The position numbers and the translations under genes were made by a program. Shown here piece after piece: positions 48,466-57,901 of a stretch of DNA of 64,000 bases; positions within the stretch are counted from its first letter, which is position 1; each line of letters starts with the position of its first letter. The stretch is from Rhodobium gokarnense. Lineage in GTDB: Bacteria; Pseudomonadota; Alphaproteobacteria; Rhizobiales; Rhodobiaceae. The notes under the pieces are model-generated. The model was given only the letters and a program-made list of their open reading frames with translations, made no database searches and was not told the origin of the DNA. Location: contig NZ_JAOQNS010000012.1 in assembly GCF_025961475.1 (NCBI RefSeq), forward strand, positions 62,001 through 126,000. The letters run 5' to 3'.

Positions 48466-49460
48466 CGCGGCGACCTTCCCGCCAGAACGACCCAGGCCAG
48501 CCAGAGAAGGCCGACGCCCCAGCCGAGCGCGAACCGCGTTTCCGGCTGCTGGATGAGCTGCCGGGCAAAGCCCTCCAGAACGGCGGCGACCAGCAGCATT
48601 GCGGCCGCGACGATCGCAAGCTTGGCGGCATCGCGGCCGGCATGGCGAAGCGCGTCCCGGCGCGTCCGGTCGCCCGGAAAGAGAACCGCCCAGCCGAGCT
48701 GCAATCCCCCGGCGCAGGCAACGCAGATCGCCGACAGCTCCGTCACCCCGTGGACCGAAAGCCAGGCGGCCAGATCGACCCCGAGGCCGCGGTCGACATA
48801 CAAGGCAAAGAACGCCCCGAGGGACAGGCCATTCTGGACGGTGAGCAGGATGGCCGGAACGCACAGGAAGACGCCGAGGCCGAAGACCAGAAACGCAACC
48901 TGCGTGTTGTGCGAAAAAAGGAAGGTCGCAAAGGCGCCGAGCGCCGACTTGTCGGGGGCCTCATCATAGAGCGCCCGGCGCAGGAACTCCGTGGTGGCCT
49001 CCGGCCCGCGACCCCCTGCAAGGCCGGACGGCATGAAGACGTGGTACCAGCCGGTGCTCTCCTGGTAGAGCAGGTAGCCGACGAAGACGCCGAGGCCGAG
49101 ACACAGATAGGCGGCGAGGATGAACGGCCACGAGCGGCGCATGGCCCGGGGCGCGCTCTGCGCGAAGAACCGCCGCAAGACGCCGCCGACACGCTCCTGC
49201 GGCGCGTAGACGCTGAGATAGGCCCGCGCCGTCAGCGCCTCCAGATACTCCAGCAGCGCCTTGTCAAGGGAGACCTCCCGGGCGATGGCAAGCGCGGTCG
49301 TCGCCTGCCGGTAGAGCGCGGAGAGGTCGCGGGCCGCGGCAAAGCTCATATGCTGGATGCCGTGCGTCTCGGCCTCGGTGACCAGCCGCTCCAGCCGCTT
49401 CCAGTCGGCTTCCCGCTCCTTGCGGAACCGGGCCGAACGCATGAGCTGGCCCTGGTCCAT
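48462..49460 (-). CDS. SpoIIM/DUF95-family membrane protein
   Basis: A 332-residue protein with a soluble helical N part ([17 protein letters not shown]...) and about five or six membrane spans in the C part (FATFLFSHNTQVAFLVFGLG, LSVHGVTELSAI). It starts in an ATGA overlap with DUF58. It belongs to the stage-II-sporulation-M-like family, which in non-sporulating bacteria is a fixed member of MoxR/DUF58 operons and has no settled role. Confidence 0.85.
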   Translation of the reverse strand: MDQGQLMRSARFRKEREADWKRLERLVTEAETHGIQHMSFAAARDLSALYRQATTALAIAREVSLDKALLEYLEALTARAYLSVYAPQERVGGVLRRFFAQSAPRAMRRSWPFILAAYLCLGLGVFVGYLLYQESTGWYHVFMPSGLAGGRGPEATTEFLRRALYDEAPDKSALGAFATFLFSHNTQVAFLVFGLGVFLCVPAILLTVQNGLSLGAFFALYVDRGLGVDLAAWLSVHGVTELSAICVACAGGLQLGWAVLFPGDRTRRDALRHAGRDAAKLAIVAAAMLLVAAVLEGFARQLIQQPETRFALGWGVGLLWLAWVVLAGRSPR

Positions 49461-50734
49461 CAGATCACCTCGCGCGCCTTGATATCGAGATAGGCCGAGA
49501 TCAGCCGGGCCGTCACCTGGTCCGGCCTGGCATCGACGACCGTGACGCCGAGCCGGGCGAGCCGTTCGTGCACCAGGCGGCGTTCGGCGATCGACTGGCT
49601 GGCGGCAACGAGGGTCGCGACGCCGTTGAGGGTCTCCGGCGCCGTCTCGACCAGCCCTTCGGTCTCGGGATCGCGCAGGGTCACGAAGATCAGCACGTGG
49701 CGCCGTGCCAGGATGCCGATGTTCTCGATCAGCAGTTCGGCCGAGGTGGTGTCGACGAAATCGGTGAAGATAACGATCAGGCTGCGCTTCGGCGTGCGCG
49801 CGTTGAGCTCGCTGAGGGCCAGCATGTGGTTGGTTTCGCGGCCGACATAGGTGAAATCCGCCATCAGGCTGCGCAGCCGCGCAAAGGCCGCGCGGCCGGC
49901 CTGCGGGGCGACGAAGACCCGGGGCTGGATGTCGTAGGCGTAGCAGGCGACGAGGTCGCCGCCGATGATCGCCGCCCATGCGGTGGCAAGGGCGGCGGTG
50001 ACGGCATGGTCGATCTTGGCAATGCCCATCACCTCCTCGCGCATCAGATAGCCGGTGTCGAGCGCGACAATGACCTGGTGGTTGCGTTCCGCCCTCAGCT
50101 CCTTGGCGACGAGCGAGCGGCGGCGGGCGGAGCGCTTCCAGTCGATGGTCTTGACGTCCATGCCTTGCACGAAGTCCCGGAGCTGGTGGAATTCGGACCC
50201 CTCGCCGATGATCCGGTTTTCCTTGACGCCGAACAGCGTGCTGGCAACGGTGGTGGTGATCTGGCCCGACTGGACGAGACGGATGTTCGGCACCACCCGG
50301 ACGCTGGCGCCGACGGCGATGCGCGGGACGAATTCAAAGAGCTTCAGGCGCGATTGCCAGGACAGCCACAAATACTCGAACGACCAGTTGCCGCGCCGGA
50401 CCGCCCGGCAGGGCACGCGTGCCCTAGCCGTCCGGTCGTCGCTGACCTCGAACGCAAACTCGCCGGGGCCGCTGACGCCGACCGGCCACTCGAGCCGGCC
50501 GCGCAGGGCGTCCGGCGCGTTCGCGACCGCAAGCTTCAGGTCGGCCGTCTCGCCGACGAAGATCTCCGGGACGAGCTCGAACGCGACCTCCTTGCGCCGC
50601 GACGGCGACAGCAGGAGGTCGGCGGCACCGGCGAACGCCAGCAGCGCCCAGGGCAACAGCGCCGCCTCGCGCAGTACGCCGCCGAGGACCGACGCCACGA
50701 CCGACAGGACCAGCGCCAGGGTTCCGGCCAACAA
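49460..50734 (-). CDS. DUF58 protein with von Willebrand-like domain
   Basis: A 424-residue protein with two N-terminal membrane segments (about residues 2-40) and the DUF58 core ...[21 protein letters not shown], followed by a vWA-like metal-site region ([11 protein letters not shown]). It is a known partner of MoxR ATPases. It follows the MoxR gene by 20 bases and couples to the SpoIIM-like gene by overlap. Confidence 0.9.
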
Positions 50735-50754
50735 CAGTCTGGGGGCGGGACGGA

Positions 50755-51700
<946 letters not shown>

Positions 51701-51711
<11 letters not shown>

Positions 51712-53017
51712 GCGTTATCTGCTCCAATATCCGTTCCAGTCTGTCGACATGTTGCATGGCTTCGTTGGCGCCGACCCGCTGGGGCAGCGCGTCGATGGCG
51801 GAGAGCGCGGCGGCCAGCGGCTCGGCATAAGCCGGATGGCGGCGGCGCAGATATTTCAGGAACGCATCGCTTCCCGCAATGCGATGCCCCTCGGCGGGAC
51901 CGACCATGGCGGCGGCCGTCGCCGCGAGCCGGGCCCTTGCGTAGTCCTTGACCATGGCGCCGTCCTGGTCGGCAAGGCGCATCAGGCGTGCCCGGGCGGC
52001 GATCGCCACGGTCTTGCTCGCCCCGAGGCCGCCGCCGCCGGCCCTGACCGGGCCGTAGCGCCGGGCGCCGCGCCACAGGAACAGGGCGAATGTAAGCGCC
52101 GCGCCGAGCCAGAGAAGCGTGAAGGGCGGCGAGAAGAAGCGCTTGAGGTCGGCCCAGCTCCGCTCGCGCCTTGCGGCATCGCGGGGGGCGTGCAGCCAGT
52201 TGCTGAGGCTGTAGTCGATGACGATGTTGCGATCGCCCGCAAGCTGCCGGAAGAGGTTCCTGGCGATGAACGCGTTGTCGCCGAGGCGCAGGCCGTGATT
52301 GTTGAGAAGGTCGGGATCGGAGAGGATCAGGACGCGCCGCTTGCCGTCCCTCGCCGCCAGCGGACAGTCGGCGAGGAGCATGGCGCCGGGCCGGCCGATC
52401 ATCGGCTTGCAGCCGGGAGCGTCGAACAGCTGGGCCGCGTAGACCTCCGCCGTCAGCGCCCTGCCCGCCTCCGTGCCGTAGCGGAAGCCGGTGAAGGCGC
52501 GGTTCGAATAGGTGATCCGGGCCGTGCGGGCGCCGATCAACTGCCGCAGCATGGCCTCCAGGCGGGACGGCTCGACACGCAGCAGGGGGTGGCCGAGCCG
52601 CTCCAGGCGCATGGCGCTGCGCCATTTCGGCAGGGCAATCAGGGCATCGACCCGGCGCGCCTTGTCGCGGATGACAGTGTAGGTCAGGTCGTTCTCGTCC
52701 TGCTGGAGGAGCAGTTGCTCGCTCGTCTCCGGCGTCGGGCGCGCCTTGTCCGGCCGGGTGTCGTAGATCGGCAGCACCAGGAGGCCGATGGTGCTCTGGT
52801 CGATCTGCCAGCCGCCGGAGAACCCTTGCGCGCTGAGGCCGTCGGAGGAGAGCCACGCCTGCAGGCCGTCGAACCCGGTCGTTGAGCTGCGCAGCGCCTG
52901 TTGCCGCAGCGTGAGCCCGTAGCCGACGATGCCGACGACGAGGACGACGAAGACCGCGATCAGGACCGTCTCGGCGCGCGGCCCCCGGGGCCGGCCGGTG
53001 ATGGTTGTCGCGCTCAT
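51701..53017 (-). CDS. DUF4350-domain membrane protein
   Basis: A 438-residue protein with one N-terminal membrane segment (about residues 18-36), a soluble periplasmic domain ([40 protein letters not shown]) and a second span at about 280-300 ([18 protein letters not shown]) before a cytoplasmic helical tail. This is the usual shape of DUF4350 proteins in MoxR operons. No enzymatic motif is known. Confidence 0.85.
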
Positions 53018-53727
53018 GGGCCGGTCGCCCCGAACAGCGGCCTGATGTCTTCGACAAGCGCGTCGAACTCGCCCTCGCTGACGTCGCGACCGCCGAAATG
53101 CACCCGCTCGCTGGCAAAGACCAGCGCGCGGAGCGCGTCCAGATGGGCCTGGCCGGCGGGAATGTGGCTGAGGGCATCCCGGGCAGTCCAGCTTCGCTGC
53201 GGCAGGACGCCGTGGGCGCCGAGCACCCGCAGAAGGGCCGACTGCGCCAGCAGCATGACGGCGCGGCGCCTGTCGGCGATCCGCAGCAATGCCTCAAGCG
53301 TGCCCGGCACGGGCTCCGCCTCGCTCTCCTCGCCGCCGCGCGCCCGGCGGCGGGATCGCCCGGGATTCGCCGCCTCCTGGCGCAGTGAGACGGAGATGCC
53401 GCCGCCATAGCGGGCCAGCAGATAGCCGAGGGCCGCGAGGATGGACGCCGTGACCACGACGACGATGATCCGCGGAGCGCTCCAGTCCCCGGCCGTCCAC
53501 TCCTTCGACGGGGGCTCCGGCTGCTGGCTCGTTTCCAGCGGCGGACGCGGGCCGAACGGATCGTAGTAGACGGCGTCGGTATCGATGCCCCGCAGCCGCA
53601 GGGACTTCAGGTAGGCGGACCCGGACTCGGTGATCTCCCGGCTCGGCTGCACGACCTCCTGCGCAACCACGGCGGATGCATGAAGGACAACCGCGACAAA
53701 GAGGATGAGCGCAACGCGCGGTCGCAT
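53014..53727 (-). CDS. DUF4129-like membrane protein
   Basis: A 237-residue protein, first gene of the MoxR operon. It has a signal peptide (MRPRVALILFVAVVLHASAVVAQ), a short extracytoplasmic part, one span (IIVVVVTASILAALGYLLA) and a cytoplasmic helical domain ending FGGRDVSEGEFDALVEDIRP. The start at 53727 has GGAG 8 bases upstream; longer in-frame starts lack a site. It overlaps the next gene by ATGA. Confidence 0.82.
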   Translation of the reverse strand: MRPRVALILFVAVVLHASAVVAQEVVQPSREITESGSAYLKSLRLRGIDTDAVYYDPFGPRPPLETSQQPEPPSKEWTAGDWSAPRIIVVVVTASILAALGYLLARYGGGISVSLRQEAANPGRSRRRARGGEESEAEPVPGTLEALLRIADRRRAVMLLAQSALLRVLGAHGVLPQRSWTARDALSHIPAGQAHLDALRALVFASERVHFGGRDVSEGEFDALVEDIRPLFGATGP

Positions 53728-53901
53728 CCCGAACTCCGATTGCTGAGACACTGGTCGGCCGCGATCCCGTTCGGACAGGTCCTCAAGCGTTGCCCGGACA
53801 TGCGCGGTGGTCAATGCGGCGTTATAGAACGCACCGCCGATCCGGAACAAGGCACGGGGCAAGAGCGGGCCGCGGCAGGTGCGCGGCCCGGCGTCATTTG
53901 C

Positions 53902-55536
53902 TCAGGGAAGCTGCGACATCCGAGGGGCCGGCATTTCCTGGACAGGAAGGCCTTCCGGCCGTTCCGCGACCTGCCGCCCCGGCGTGCGGGTCCAGAAGGC
54001 CCGGAGCGACGGTCCGTCCCTGATGCGACGCTCGCGGAAGAAGGAGACGATCTCATAGGGCCAGACGCGGCGTCCCATGGCGGTGTACCAGCGCATCGCG
54101 TGGCGCTGCTCCCGGTCCGGCTGCAGATAGGTGCGCCAGAGCGCTTTCGGCCGGCACTGCAGGGCCGCTTCGATGAATTTCACCCAGACGAGAACCCGCC
54201 AGGGCGCCATCTGCTGCGTCGCCAGCACCTGGTGCTTGTAGTCCCAGCGGCGCTGGTCGGGCTGGATGGTGGTCCGGTCCGCCTCCTCGTCGAAATAGGG
54301 CGTCCAGCGATGCGGGGTCGCATAGAGGATCTGGACCTGATCGGGGTCGTAGGCGAGCAACTGGCGCAGCATGCGCCAATAGTCCCGGTCCGCTTCCTCC
54401 CTGAACCCAACGACCGAGGTCGCCATGGAGATGATGCCGTGGCGGCGCAGCAGCCGGATGGCCTGGCGGTCGGTCGCCGTGGTCGAGCCCTTCCTGATGC
54501 GCTCAAGGGTGGCCGCATCGGTGTTTTCCAGCCCGAGCAGGAAGCGGATGACGCCGGCCTTCCGGTAGAGGTGCAGGATGTCGGCGTCGCGGACGATATC
54601 GCCGGCGCGGGTCGAGCCGACGAGGGTGAGGTCGACGTCCTCGGCGATGAGCGCTTCCAGGAACGCCTTCCAGGCGCGGCGCGACGACGTCGGGTTCTCG
54701 TCGGCGAGGTTGATGACCTTGACCCCCTCCTCGCGGTGCAGCCGGGCCAGTTCCCTGGCAAAGGCGACCGGGTCCCGGTGCCGCCAGCGCTTCCAGAAGA
54801 GGTTCTGGCCGCAATAGGTGCACTGGTGCGGGCAGCCGCGCGAGAACTGGGCGACGACGGCGCGCATCCCGCCCCAATAGCTGTAGCGCGCGTGGTCGAT
54901 CAGCTCCCAGCCGATCCGGTAGGCGTCGAGATTGCCGATCAGCGGCGCCGGAGCGGTGCGCACCGGCCGGCCGTCGCTGAGGAACGCCAGTCCGGGCAGA
55001 TGGTCGAACGGCTGGCGCTGCGCCATCGCCCGGACGAGCCGGCGGGTGGTTTCCTCCCCCTCCCCGCAGACGATCGCCGTCACATGGGGTTCCGTGAGCA
55101 GGACTTCGCGCCAGTGGTAGGTCGGGTAGACGCCGCCATAGACGATGGCGATGTCCGGGCGGGCCCGTGCAACCGCTGCCGCGACCTCGGCGATGACCGG
55201 GTGGCCGGAGGTCGAGCCGGAATGGCCGAACAGGACGATGTCGGGATCGAAATGGACCACGGCCTCGACGAGCGCCCGGGTCGGCGTCGGCGCAAGGTCG
55301 GCATCGATCAGGCGCACCTCGTGGCCGTCGTCGATCAGCGGGCCGCCGATGGCAAGCAGGCCGAGCGGCGGCAGGTGGTCGTCCGGGATGCGGCTGCCGA
55401 TGGCCGGGTGCGTGACGTTGATGAGCAGGATGCGCAGGACGGGCATACCCGCATGCCCTGAGGGCGCCGGCGAGGCCTCTCGAAGCGCGGGTGTCTGCGC
55501 CATGCACACCGAGCGGGCGGGGTACAGGTTTGTCAT
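53902..55536 (-). CDS. BchE-like cobalamin-binding radical SAM protein
   Basis: A 544-residue protein with a B12-binding domain at about 35-175 (GHSGSTSGHP, VYGGVYPTYHW, VCGEGEE) and a radical SAM domain with C235-PHQ-C239-TY-C242. It resembles the anaerobic Mg-protoporphyrin ester cyclase family in several blocks (FWKRWRHRDP, NLADENPTSSRRAWKAFLEA), but differs from the classical BchE N terminus. The start at 55536 is fixed by AGGAGGTG at 55541-55548 and by the ATGA overlap with the prenyltransferase gene. What it modifies is not clear. Confidence 0.82.
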   Translation of the reverse strand: MTNLYPARSVCMAQTPALREASPAPSGHAGMPVLRILLINVTHPAIGSRIPDDHLPPLGLLAIGGPLIDDGHEVRLIDADLAPTPTRALVEAVVHFDPDIVLFGHSGSTSGHPVIAEVAAAVARARPDIAIVYGGVYPTYHWREVLLTEPHVTAIVCGEGEETTRRLVRAMAQRQPFDHLPGLAFLSDGRPVRTAPAPLIGNLDAYRIGWELIDHARYSYWGGMRAVVAQFSRGCPHQCTYCGQNLFWKRWRHRDPVAFARELARLHREEGVKVINLADENPTSSRRAWKAFLEALIAEDVDLTLVGSTRAGDIVRDADILHLYRKAGVIRFLLGLENTDAATLERIRKGSTTATDRQAIRLLRRHGIISMATSVVGFREEADRDYWRMLRQLLAYDPDQVQILYATPHRWTPYFDEEADRTTIQPDQRRWDYKHQVLATQQMAPWRVLVWVKFIEAALQCRPKALWRTYLQPDREQRHAMRWYTAMGRRVWPYEIVSFFRERRIRDGPSLRAFWTRTPGRQVAERPEGLPVQEMPAPRMSQLP

Positions 55537-56345
55537 TCCGCACCTCCTGCCATCGCCTCTTGGCCTGCCGGATGGACATGACCCCGCACCGGTGCACCAT
55601 CGCAAGCGCCGCCATGCCGTTCGTGTGAAGCGACGGTTTCGCGACAGGGCTGCTCGGCGAGGCCACCGAAGCGGCGGTTGCGGCGGCGGTAGTCACGCAT
55701 CGCCGTTGCCAGCTCCTCGGCGCCGAAGTCGGGCCAGAGGCAGGGGGTGAAATAGAGTTCGGCGTAGGCGCATTCCCAGAGCAGGAAGTCGGACAGCCGC
55801 TGCTCGCCGCTGGTGCGGACGAGAAGGTCGACGTCGGGACAGGAGACGCCGCCCTTGAGATGGCGCGCGAAGGTCTCCGGGGTGAGCGGCGTGTCGCCTC
55901 GCGCCGACGATGCCGCCTCGAGGATAGCGTGGCGGGCGGAGTAGTCGAGGGCGATCCGCAGGTGCAGGCGTCTTCCGGCCCTCGTATCGGCTTCGAGCCC
56001 GGCGATCTCGTCCGCAAGGCCTTCGGGCAGGCGGTCGCGCCGGCCGATCACCGTCAGGCGGACGCCATTGTCGATGAGGTCCGGGCGCCGGGTGCGGAAA
56101 TACTGGCGGAACAGCTCAAAGAGCGCATCGACCTCCGCCGCCGGCCGCTGCCAGTTGTCCGACGAAAAGGCATAGAGCGTCAGGGTGCCGATGTTGAGGT
56201 CGGGCGCGGCACGGACGACGGCTTCCACGGCGTTGACGCCTTCCACATGGCCGTATGGGCGCGGCAGGCCCCGCTGCAGGGCCCAGCGGCCGTTGCCGTC
56301 CATGATGACGGCGACGTGGTCTCTTTTGCGTAAATAACTTTGCAT
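55533..56345 (-). CDS. cis-Prenyltransferase (undecaprenyl-diphosphate-synthase family)
   Basis: A 270-residue enzyme that elongates allylic diphosphates with isopentenyl diphosphate in Z configuration. It has the catalytic Asp16 in HVAVIMDGNGRWA, the TLYAFSSDNW block and the C-terminal RTSGEQRLSDFLLWECAYAE signature. AAGGAG precedes the ATG. The last 30 or so residues are variable. It is coupled by ATGA to the BchE-like gene and is probably not the housekeeping UppS, which normally sits with cdsA and dxr. Confidence 0.88.
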   Translation of the reverse strand: MQSYLRKRDHVAVIMDGNGRWALQRGLPRPYGHVEGVNAVEAVVRAAPDLNIGTLTLYAFSSDNWQRPAAEVDALFELFRQYFRTRRPDLIDNGVRLTVIGRRDRLPEGLADEIAGLEADTRAGRRLHLRIALDYSARHAILEAASSARGDTPLTPETFARHLKGGVSCPDVDLLVRTSGEQRLSDFLLWECAYAELYFTPCLWPDFGAEELATAMRDYRRRNRRFGGLAEQPCRETVASHERHGGACDGAPVRGHVHPAGQEAMAGGAE

Positions 56346-56352
56346 TGCAAAG
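56332..56352. promoter_or_regulatory. Operator over the prenyltransferase start codon
   Basis: On + the palindrome is CTTTGCA-T-TGCAAAG (56338-56352) with AAATAA ahead of it. The same 21-base site, 18 of 21 bases identical, occurs at 57566-57586. It covers the start codon and the first codons of the prenyltransferase gene. Confidence 0.65.
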
Positions 56353-56561
56353 CTCCTTTCCAAAAAAACACCCCGAACGCGGCGCGTCCGCGGTGAAGCG
56401 CACCCCCTGCCCTTTCTCTTGTCGTTGGCGCATCGGATCGTTGCGTTTGTCCAGATCCGATGCGCCGAAGCGCGTTGCCTTCAGACGCTTCTGGCGCCGC
56501 CTGTCTCAGGCGGTCTGTCGTTGCGTGTATCTTCGTCCCGGCTACCCTCCTCAGAGAGTCT

Positions 56562-56942
56562 TCAGACCGGCTTCAGTCCGAGCTTGCCCGGATCGGGTTC
56601 GTTGCTGCGTTCCGCGGCGTCGGCCGCGTTCCTGACCACCTGTTCCAGCACGGCCAGATAGTCGGCGAAACGCTTGCGGCCGAGGTCGGTGAGTTCGCAC
56701 CTGGTGTGCGGGCGATTGCGCTCATAGCCCTTGTGGACGGCGACCAGCCCGGCGTCCTGCAGCACCTGGATGTGGCGGCTGAGATTGCCGTCGGTGAGGC
56801 CGCAAAGCTGTTTCAGGTCGGAAAAGGCCAGCCCCTTCGGGTGGCCGACCAGCGACGTGACGATGCCGAGCCTAGCCTTTTCGTGAAACACCCGGTCGAG
56901 CCCGTCATAGGCAAAGGGCGCGTCCTCAGATCGCTTGGCCAT
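56562..56942 (-). CDS. Winged-helix transcriptional regulator (HTH_34/MarR-like)
   Basis: A 126-residue DNA-binding protein with a winged helix (KGLAFSDLKQLCGLTDGNLSRHIQVLQDAGLV, wing around GYERNRPHTR) and a helical tail. GGAGG precedes the ATG at 56942; the upstream ATG at 56954 has no site. It overlaps the membrane-protein gene by 17 bases, and so is made with it. It is the best candidate to bind the two shared CTTTGCA/AAAG operators. Confidence 0.88.
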   Translation of the reverse strand: MAKRSEDAPFAYDGLDRVFHEKARLGIVTSLVGHPKGLAFSDLKQLCGLTDGNLSRHIQVLQDAGLVAVHKGYERNRPHTRCELTDLGRKRFADYLAVLEQVVRNAADAAERSNEPDPGKLGLKPV

Positions 56943-57546
56943 CGTCGCCTCCATTGGCGCTGCGTAAGAGGATCGCCATCAGGCCCTGGCCGAGGGCGAA
57001 GGGGACGCCCATCATCCAGGGCGAAAGCTCGCGGCTGGTGCTTGCGAGGATGAAGACCGCGATCCCGGCAACGAGGTACCAGGCGCCAGCGAGCCCGATG
57101 GAGCGCGGCAGGCTGCGCAAGGAGGCGAAAAGGCCAAGCGCGACAAGGATCTGCCAGAGGCCGGGAAGCATCCAGATGGAGTCGGGCGCGTATTTCAGCA
57201 CCGCCGCGGTCACCGCCGCGCCGGCGACCCCGGCCGGCAGGAACTGCTCGACGGCGGCAAGGATCATCGCATCGGCCATGCCGCCATGGAGGCGCCGGGA
57301 GCGCGCAAACATCTCCACGCCGACGAGCGCCGCCGCAACGACGGCGACGACGATCCAGCAGACAACGAACCGCACCGGATCGTCGGCGAGCGCTGCCGGC
57401 CAGGTCGCCTGGGCAACGGCAGCGACGAGCGCCAGCCCGCCGGTCGTCGCGATCACCGCAGGGCCGAAGCCGCGAAACAGCGTGCCGGCGGCAAGCTGGC
57501 TGCGGATATTGGCAATGTCCGTCAAGGCCTTGTCGAATTCGCCCAT
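56926..57546 (-). CDS. Multi-span membrane protein, partner of the winged-helix regulator
   Basis: A 206-residue protein with about six hydrophobic segments, starting MGEFDKALTDIANIRSQLA. Its site is weak (GGGATCGG), and a TTG seven codons upstream is an alternative start. I know similar membrane proteins paired with small winged-helix regulators, but no function. Its promoter region carries the shared operator. Confidence 0.7.
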   Translation of the reverse strand: MGEFDKALTDIANIRSQLAAGTLFRGFGPAVIATTGGLALVAAVAQATWPAALADDPVRFVVCWIVVAVVAAALVGVEMFARSRRLHGGMADAMILAAVEQFLPAGVAGAAVTAAVLKYAPDSIWMLPGLWQILVALGLFASLRSLPRSIGLAGAWYLVAGIAVFILASTSRELSPWMMGVPFALGQGLMAILLRSANGGDDGQAI

Positions 57547-57901
57547 GCCGATCCCACGCAGGTGCAAATAACTTTATAATGCAAAGTACACGTCACTCCA
57601 AAGATTGGCAAGGGCGATCTTGCAGGCCGGGCGAAAAAGCGGCGCCCGGGGCAGTTGCGTGTTTTCGCCGACGTCGCAGACGGGCGGCCCTCGACCCTCC
57701 CGCGCCATCATCCCCTGCCTCGGGAAAACGGCACGGACTTATGAATGTCCGTCATGAGCGTCTGCATCCTGCGCGGCCTAATGCCGCCCGCTCCGGCGAC
57801 TTACATCAATAGAAACAATCACAAAGCCAAGGCCGCTCCAGACATCCAAGGGGCAAAGCGCCGGATCGGCGCCGGGCCTTGCGGCATGACAGGAGTTCAA
57901 G
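57547..57901. other. Intergenic region between divergent genes
   Basis: These 355 bases hold the operator at 57566-57586 and, further on, no gene that I can support. The stretch at 57800-57840 is AT-richer and may contain the DUF2255 promoter. Confidence 0.5.
57566..57586. promoter_or_regulatory. Second copy of the shared operator, at the membrane-protein promoter
   Basis: On the - strand the site reads CTTTGCATTATAAAG then TTATTT and overlaps a -10-like TATAAA, about 20 bases upstream of the ATG at 57546. It matches the prenyltransferase site at 18 of 21 positions. Confidence 0.6.

Follow-up and report, generated by a model that had tools for sequence, protein, structure and literature searches.

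The locus

The window analysed here is a 64-kb stretch of the 5.1-Mb genome of Rhodobium gokarnense, a member of the same genus as Rhodobium orientis DSM 11290 (G060; Hyphomicrobiales). A minus-strand run of four genes at 53902-57567 encodes a membrane protein, a winged-helix regulator, a second cis-prenyltransferase (uppS2) and a B12-binding radical S-adenosylmethionine (SAM) protein, and it carries two copies of one palindrome, designated operators O1 and O2. From the promoter end the features are:

57606..57611, minus strand: likely -35 element (TTGCCA) of the cassette promoter, placed by a logo in which CTTGC is conserved upstream of O1
57572..57586, minus strand: operator O1, a 15-bp core with two mismatches to the consensus, overlapping the -10-like element of the membrane-protein promoter (site comparison and logo)
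56926..57546, minus strand: membrane protein, likely ATG at 57546 (family scans, helix prediction, fold search)
56562..56954, minus strand: winged-helix regulator with an HTH_34 domain (PF13601), a probable repressor (domain match)
56338..56352, minus strand: operator O2, a perfect CTTTGCAATGCAAAG with the uppS2 ATG (56345-56343) at its centre (site comparison)
55533..56345, minus strand: uppS2, second cis-prenyltransferase (PF01255; NF011412), catalytic motifs intact (domain match and alignment)
53902..55536, minus strand: B12-binding radical SAM protein, apparently a BchE-like paralogue and not BchE, with a conserved core starting near 55446 (domain match, tree, structure model)

The stop of uppS2 and the start of the radical SAM gene overlap as ATGA (55533-55536), and AGGAGGTG is present at 55541-55548, by the radical SAM start. 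The 21-mers at 56332-56352 and 57566-57586 are identical at 18 of 21 positions. A preliminary description of this DNA had given the overlap, the AGGAGGTG site, the matching 21-mers and their coordinates, and direct reading shows all of them to be correct.

Paired operator sites across cassette loci

Are the two palindromes real sites? Their number in the window is not significant, since three matches at up to three mismatches compare with 1.21 expected and 14 of 100 shuffles reach three. We therefore rely on a comparison of 117 loci, namely the window, 33 other order-level loci, 80 named loci and three from other orders. The order-level loci, which bring to 34 the cassette genomes found among 397, were picked by uppS2 score (32 at 240 bits or more, the next scoring 222, plus the stop-broken G028), and the named loci by winged-helix match (the best 80 of 542). 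Bradyrhizobium dominates the named loci and at least six genomes are counted twice, so that the loci are related and are not independent trials. The membrane-protein gene, the winged-helix gene and uppS2 stand together in 117 of 117 loci, all picked by uppS2 or winged-helix likeness.

The best site before the membrane-protein gene (O1) has three mismatches or fewer in 115 of the 117 loci, and the best site at the uppS2 start (O2) in 113; in random 150-bp windows of the same genes none of 1764 matched at two mismatches or fewer and two matched at three. The sites first noticed in the window thus recur in related genomes, and we judge them real because the comparison across loci recovers them, the window count by itself being within chance. 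O1 and O2 have the extended consensus ACTTTGCAATGCAAAGT in common. On this comparison the winged-helix gene, its membrane partner and the second cis-prenyltransferase form a conserved unit in which one palindrome occurs twice, on the promoter and over the uppS2 start.

The position of O2 leaves a mark on the coding sequence. The centre of the palindrome is ATG in 108 of 113 loci (GTG in three, TTG in one, ATA in one). Among the 108 ATG-centred loci, codon 2 of uppS2 is CAA in 107 and codon 3 is AGT in 90, although elsewhere in these genes CAG and CAA stand at 1301:317 and AGT otherwise makes up 101 of 3325 serine codons. That CAA-AGT is kept against codon use shows selection at the DNA level; protein selection does not account for it. 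At O1 the logo has a -35-like CTTGC and a -10-like TATACT (TGTACT in the window) that overlaps the left edge of the operator, an arrangement with the apparent anatomy of autorepression. A strict sigma-70 scan of the window gave no promoter match, the O1 region included.

From the winged-helix stop to the uppS2 ATG is 23-49 nt in 105 of 113 loci (216 nt in the window and 144 nt in R. orientis), and with so short a gap O2 usually lies within one apparent operon. The preliminary description had the winged-helix protein controlling two units. Its choice of regulator is supported by the joint occurrence of both sites with the winged-helix and membrane-protein genes; the two units give way to what looks mostly like one same-direction operon with an internal operator.

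In the 5.1-Mb genome, 56338-56352 is the sole perfect copy found, and six places match at two mismatches or fewer, against four for a reversed control pattern. A wider regulon is unsupported in this genome; of the extra two-mismatch sites, only that in L002 was inspected.

Some further elements accompany the operators. Between the -35 and -10 elements, 17 bp before O1, stands an extra conserved half-site, ACTTTGC, and O2 has a conserved TTTG some 13 bp ahead of its matching part (both e.g. in L119 and L141). These elements hint that there may be a second regulator dimer. In the window, where the gap between the winged-helix gene and uppS2 is unusually long, a terminator-like hairpin with a T run (56368-56390) lies just before the uppS2 ribosome site; a terminator scan of the window was at chance level, with three terminator-like matches against 2.7 expected.

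The regulator, its membrane partner and uppS2

The winged-helix protein has both a winged helix-turn-helix domain (HTH_34) and a conserved palindrome on its own promoter. Because its gene travels with the membrane-protein gene and both sites, it is the obvious owner of the sites, and it is probably a repressor of the cassette. In domain and length it resembles other HTH_34 regulators (PF13601), which include the solved relative PH1061 (1ub9), but the cassette clade (above 188 bits with alignment A1, in 5 of 337 class genomes) lies well apart from the others (83 bits or less). The membrane protein is predicted to have an N-terminal helix and six long helices; it matched no Pfam or NCBIfam family, nor any PDB or viral fold at E 0.001.

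Elsewhere, some HTH_34 genes follow a gene for a membrane protein of about 190 aa without uppS. This is seen in L226, L230, L231, L232, L233 and L236, where the 8.5-9 kb read contain no uppS. The membrane/winged-helix pair seems to be a regulatory module of wider occurrence that has been little studied; a literature search found no paper on PF13601 or HTH_34.

UppS2 matches PF01255 at 245.9 bits over the whole domain, exceeds the NF011412 cut-off, and shares the catalytic motifs of UppS and other cis-prenyltransferases (PF01255, TIGR00055, NF011412). MDGNGRW, H33, RP..E71, RT[S]GE and E196, which have catalytic roles in this family, are conserved in 105 sequences of the uppS2 clade, all with a good O2 and at least 220 aa long. 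The genome has one other PF01255 gene, a separate UppS at C4:449562, to which UppS2 is a paralogue with 44% identity over 227 residues. Compared with this single other UppS, the 105 clade sequences have DYS for NYG and SDFLLWE for SNFLLWQ, both beside the motifs, and uppS2 further differs in having an operator over its start codon. The clade-wide changes suggest that the UppS2 product may differ.

A BchE-like protein behind uppS2

The radical SAM protein scores above the cut-offs of PF02310 and PF04055, and its C227, C231 and C234 (CxxxCxxC) are invariant in alignment A3 of radical SAM proteins. Its predicted structure matches the folds of CysS, MgmA, AprD4, TsrM, OxsB and TokK. With BchE (TIGR02026) it has the B12-binding and radical SAM domains in common, and it exceeds the curated cut-off for that model (514.8 bits against 481.35). 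PMC13142503 describes BchE as a B12 radical SAM enzyme that performs a six-electron oxidation, with water as the proposed oxygen source and an activity severely diminished by oxygen.

Is the cassette protein then a BchE? The genome encodes a separate BchE of 801 bits (G000:C5:139226), about 26 kb from the reaction-centre genes, and R. orientis likewise has one of about 800 bits. The cassette protein is about 30% identical to the BchE of its own genome, lies outside the true-BchE clade (support 100/100, three rows) and is tied to uppS2. By these comparisons we take it to be a protein that passes the BchE cut-off but is not BchE.

For the radical SAM tree, matches with fewer than 240 aligned residues or above E 1e-8 were excluded first, and 7 of 49 extracted sequences were then dropped (stops or under 430 aa); the tree carries long-branch warnings, for L219 above all. 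The cassette proteins form a single clade (99/97) in which 27 of 28 rows adjoin uppS2, R. orientis, represented by two identical radical SAM sequences, being counted twice. The pairing of a cis-prenyltransferase with a B12 radical SAM protein, noted in the preliminary description, therefore recurs, with the radical SAM gene as an optional member and not the core partner it had been taken for: it is present in 9 of the 34 order-level cassette genomes, in one of them (G217) broken, and in 22 of the 80 named loci, two others retaining short remnants. Other genomes of the order carry more distant relatives without uppS2.

Remnants of the gene were seen at L137:6166-6252 and L167:7231-7332 (Bradyrhizobium, near uppS2) and at L245:7614-7913 (G008, before a linalool dehydratase/isomerase-family [Ldi] gene), suggesting repeated loss.

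HpnR is the second-best NCBIfam match (135 bits) and HpnJ a weaker one (70 bits), both far under their cut-offs of 650 and 578 bits. HpnR and HpnJ act on hopanoids and so provide a precedent for B12 radical SAM proteins acting on lipids. None of nine window proteins scanned was above a hopanoid cut-off; an epimerase-like protein reached 48 on HpnA, where the cut-off is 368. By analogy with BchE itself, a relative of it could oxidise or methylate a polyprenyl chain.

BchE-like radical SAM genes without uppS2 nearby occur in L112, L115, L235, L238 (incomplete) and L239, next to what we take to be an Lrp-like regulator and an aromatic-amino-acid-hydroxylase-like gene. The whole genes of this kind in G228, G135 and G104 score above the BchE cut-off, and their genomes have no PF00124 match.

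Other genes in the same slot

In some cassettes the slot after uppS2 is occupied by other genes. In G658, outside the order, uppS2 is immediately followed by a different B12 radical SAM gene (24% identity; its best family score is 77 bits), which suggests more than one origin of the pairing. The slot holds Ldi and a DgkA-family kinase in G543, Ldi, DgkA and DUF4153 in G191 and G075, and DUF4153 in G255, G366 and G625; in G068 DUF4153 is followed by the radical SAM gene. (Pfam was run on the slot genes of G543, G191 and G366; the rest were assigned by sequence likeness, the G075 Ldi also by a family search.)

The Ldi proteins of G191, G075 and G543 match the linalool dehydratase/isomerase family (PF18566) at 222-254 bits. 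They differ from it in being about 650 aa long, with the family domain making up only part (242-536 of 653 in G543), in scoring about 34 bits to the solved LinD, and in being placed beside uppS2 and DgkA. The family is rare, found in 1 of 289 class genomes and 4 of 279 order genomes, and three of these five genes are in a cassette; no PF18566 match was found in the window's own genome. In G008, Ldi and DgkA follow what remains of the N-terminal part of the same radical SAM gene, on an 8.1-kb contig that has no cassette core. Together with the cassette arrangements, G008 and G068 link the radical SAM gene, Ldi, DgkA and DUF4153 to one another as well as to uppS2. The earlier proposal that the window's two enzymes make or modify an isoprenoid gains support from the Ldi-family, DgkA-type and unrelated B12 radical SAM genes found in this slot; for a response to oxygen, also proposed, this analysis gave no supporting evidence.

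Interpretation

We read these loci as a self-regulating isoprenoid-lipid cassette, autorepressed and making a cis-polyprenyl lipid that some lineages modify, and put the probability of this reading at about 0.6. The binding, repression, signal and product that we infer would fit together as follows. A dimer of the winged-helix protein would repress its own promoter through O1, and at O2 would block entry into uppS2, either as a roadblock or by masking an internal promoter. The membrane protein would report the state of the membrane or of polyprenyl lipids and release the repressor, and UppS2 would then add cis-polyprenyl diphosphate to what the housekeeping UppS supplies. Where a lineage has a slot enzyme, this would modify the chain or its alcohol: in the window the BchE-like B12 radical SAM protein, by oxidation, hydroxylation or methylation of an unactivated carbon, and elsewhere the other B12 radical SAM protein or a linalool-dehydratase-family protein with a DgkA-type kinase. 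More tentatively, and at somewhat less than even odds, the product may be a previously undescribed tailored cis-polyprenyl lipid, in which the UppS2 chain is oxidised, methylated or isomerised by interchangeable enzymes (either B12 radical SAM type; Ldi with DgkA; DUF4153) and synthesis is gated by a membrane-coupled winged-helix repressor through the start-codon operator.

Several observations weigh against the cassette reading, which as a whole rests on sequence comparison. A good O2 is missing in four of the 117 loci (L095, L097, L098, L133) and a good O1 in two (L097, L099), and the window's genome has no further evident operator. The radical SAM gene is not confined to cassettes: G214 has a cassette-clade member with no uppS2 match in the 615 bases before it, among 297 order genomes 18 have a relative at E<=1e-80, and just 6 of these have it in a cassette, while in G814 and G873, outside the class, no cassette gene lies near the relative. 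Its distance from uppS2 also varies, from 2 to 294 nt to the conserved core in 31 loci, and the G235 Ldi has no cassette gene within the 12 kb read. Beyond the nine order-level cassette genomes with the radical SAM gene, four of the 34 have DUF4153 or Ldi sets, and none of these genes follows uppS2 in most cassettes, most of those in Bradyrhizobium included. With no recognised isoprenoid enzyme in the slot of most cassettes, the core must be able to function by itself.

That last point fits a different function, in which an envelope-stress switch raises undecaprenyl phosphate through a second UppS and the genes behind are passengers on a regulated promoter. Cassettes that have the core but no recognised slot enzyme are the commonest, and UppS2, with its catalytic motifs, could make the ordinary product. 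Such a backup supply of carrier lipid would leave unexplained why the slot genes look non-random (two unrelated B12 radical SAM types, the rare Ldi with DgkA, and DUF4153 recur, some of them interlinked) and why a mere duplicate should have clade-wide changes beside its motifs; we consider it unlikely, though worth keeping in view. We find it very improbable that O2 acts as RNA, with a hairpin hiding the start codon and the winged-helix protein irrelevant to this site. Read by eye, the palindrome allows 6 bp of pairing about the start codon, but at O1 the same 17-bp palindrome with its flanks spans the -10-like box, where at least half of it would precede the transcript start, and 5'-arm changes at O2 break the pairing (G to A, for example, in 12% of 80 distinct sites).

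Less credible still, and already disfavoured, is that the radical SAM protein is a genuine second BchE for bacteriochlorophyll synthesis whose place behind uppS2 is incidental. Beyond the 515-bit score, over the 481-bit cut-off, this would draw on the reaction-centre genes: the window's genome and R. orientis have two PF00124 genes each, presumably encoding reaction-centre L and M, so that both are probably phototrophs, and such genes occur in four of six cassette-plus-radical-SAM genomes tested (G310, G351 and G388 were left out). Both Rhodobium genomes, however, already hold a BchE of about 800 bits some 26 kb from those genes, the two types are far apart in sequence and in the tree, and some genomes with a clade member lack a PF00124 match (G214, 99% complete; G211, 88%; G161, 58%). 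A link of the cassette to photosynthesis was likewise rejected, given the higher-scoring BchE elsewhere and the two of six genomes (58% and 88% complete) without PF00124.

Neighbouring genes

Directly downstream of the cassette, 49460-53862 encodes a DUF4129 protein and three further genes, presumably MoxR- and DUF58-like. By clustering, three of these four genes have the same order in R. orientis.

Significance

Among the matches listed in literature searches we found no published description of this cassette, no paper joining a cis-prenyltransferase with a cobalamin radical SAM protein or linalool dehydratase with undecaprenyl, and none on undecaprenyl pyrophosphate synthase with a transcriptional regulator in Bradyrhizobium. 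Apart from the membrane protein and DUF4153, all the enzyme and regulator families involved belong to known activity classes; the proposed chemistry would be new if real. For annotation the locus is a trap: this radical SAM protein, like its relatives, scores above the curated BchE cut-off even where the genome has no reaction-centre match. With the operator on the start codon, synonymous changes offer a direct test of the regulation. If the cassette reading is true, the carrier-lipid pathway, which bacterial envelopes depend on, would gain a regulated branch, and some rhizobia and purple bacteria would be predicted to contain a modified polyprenyl lipid.

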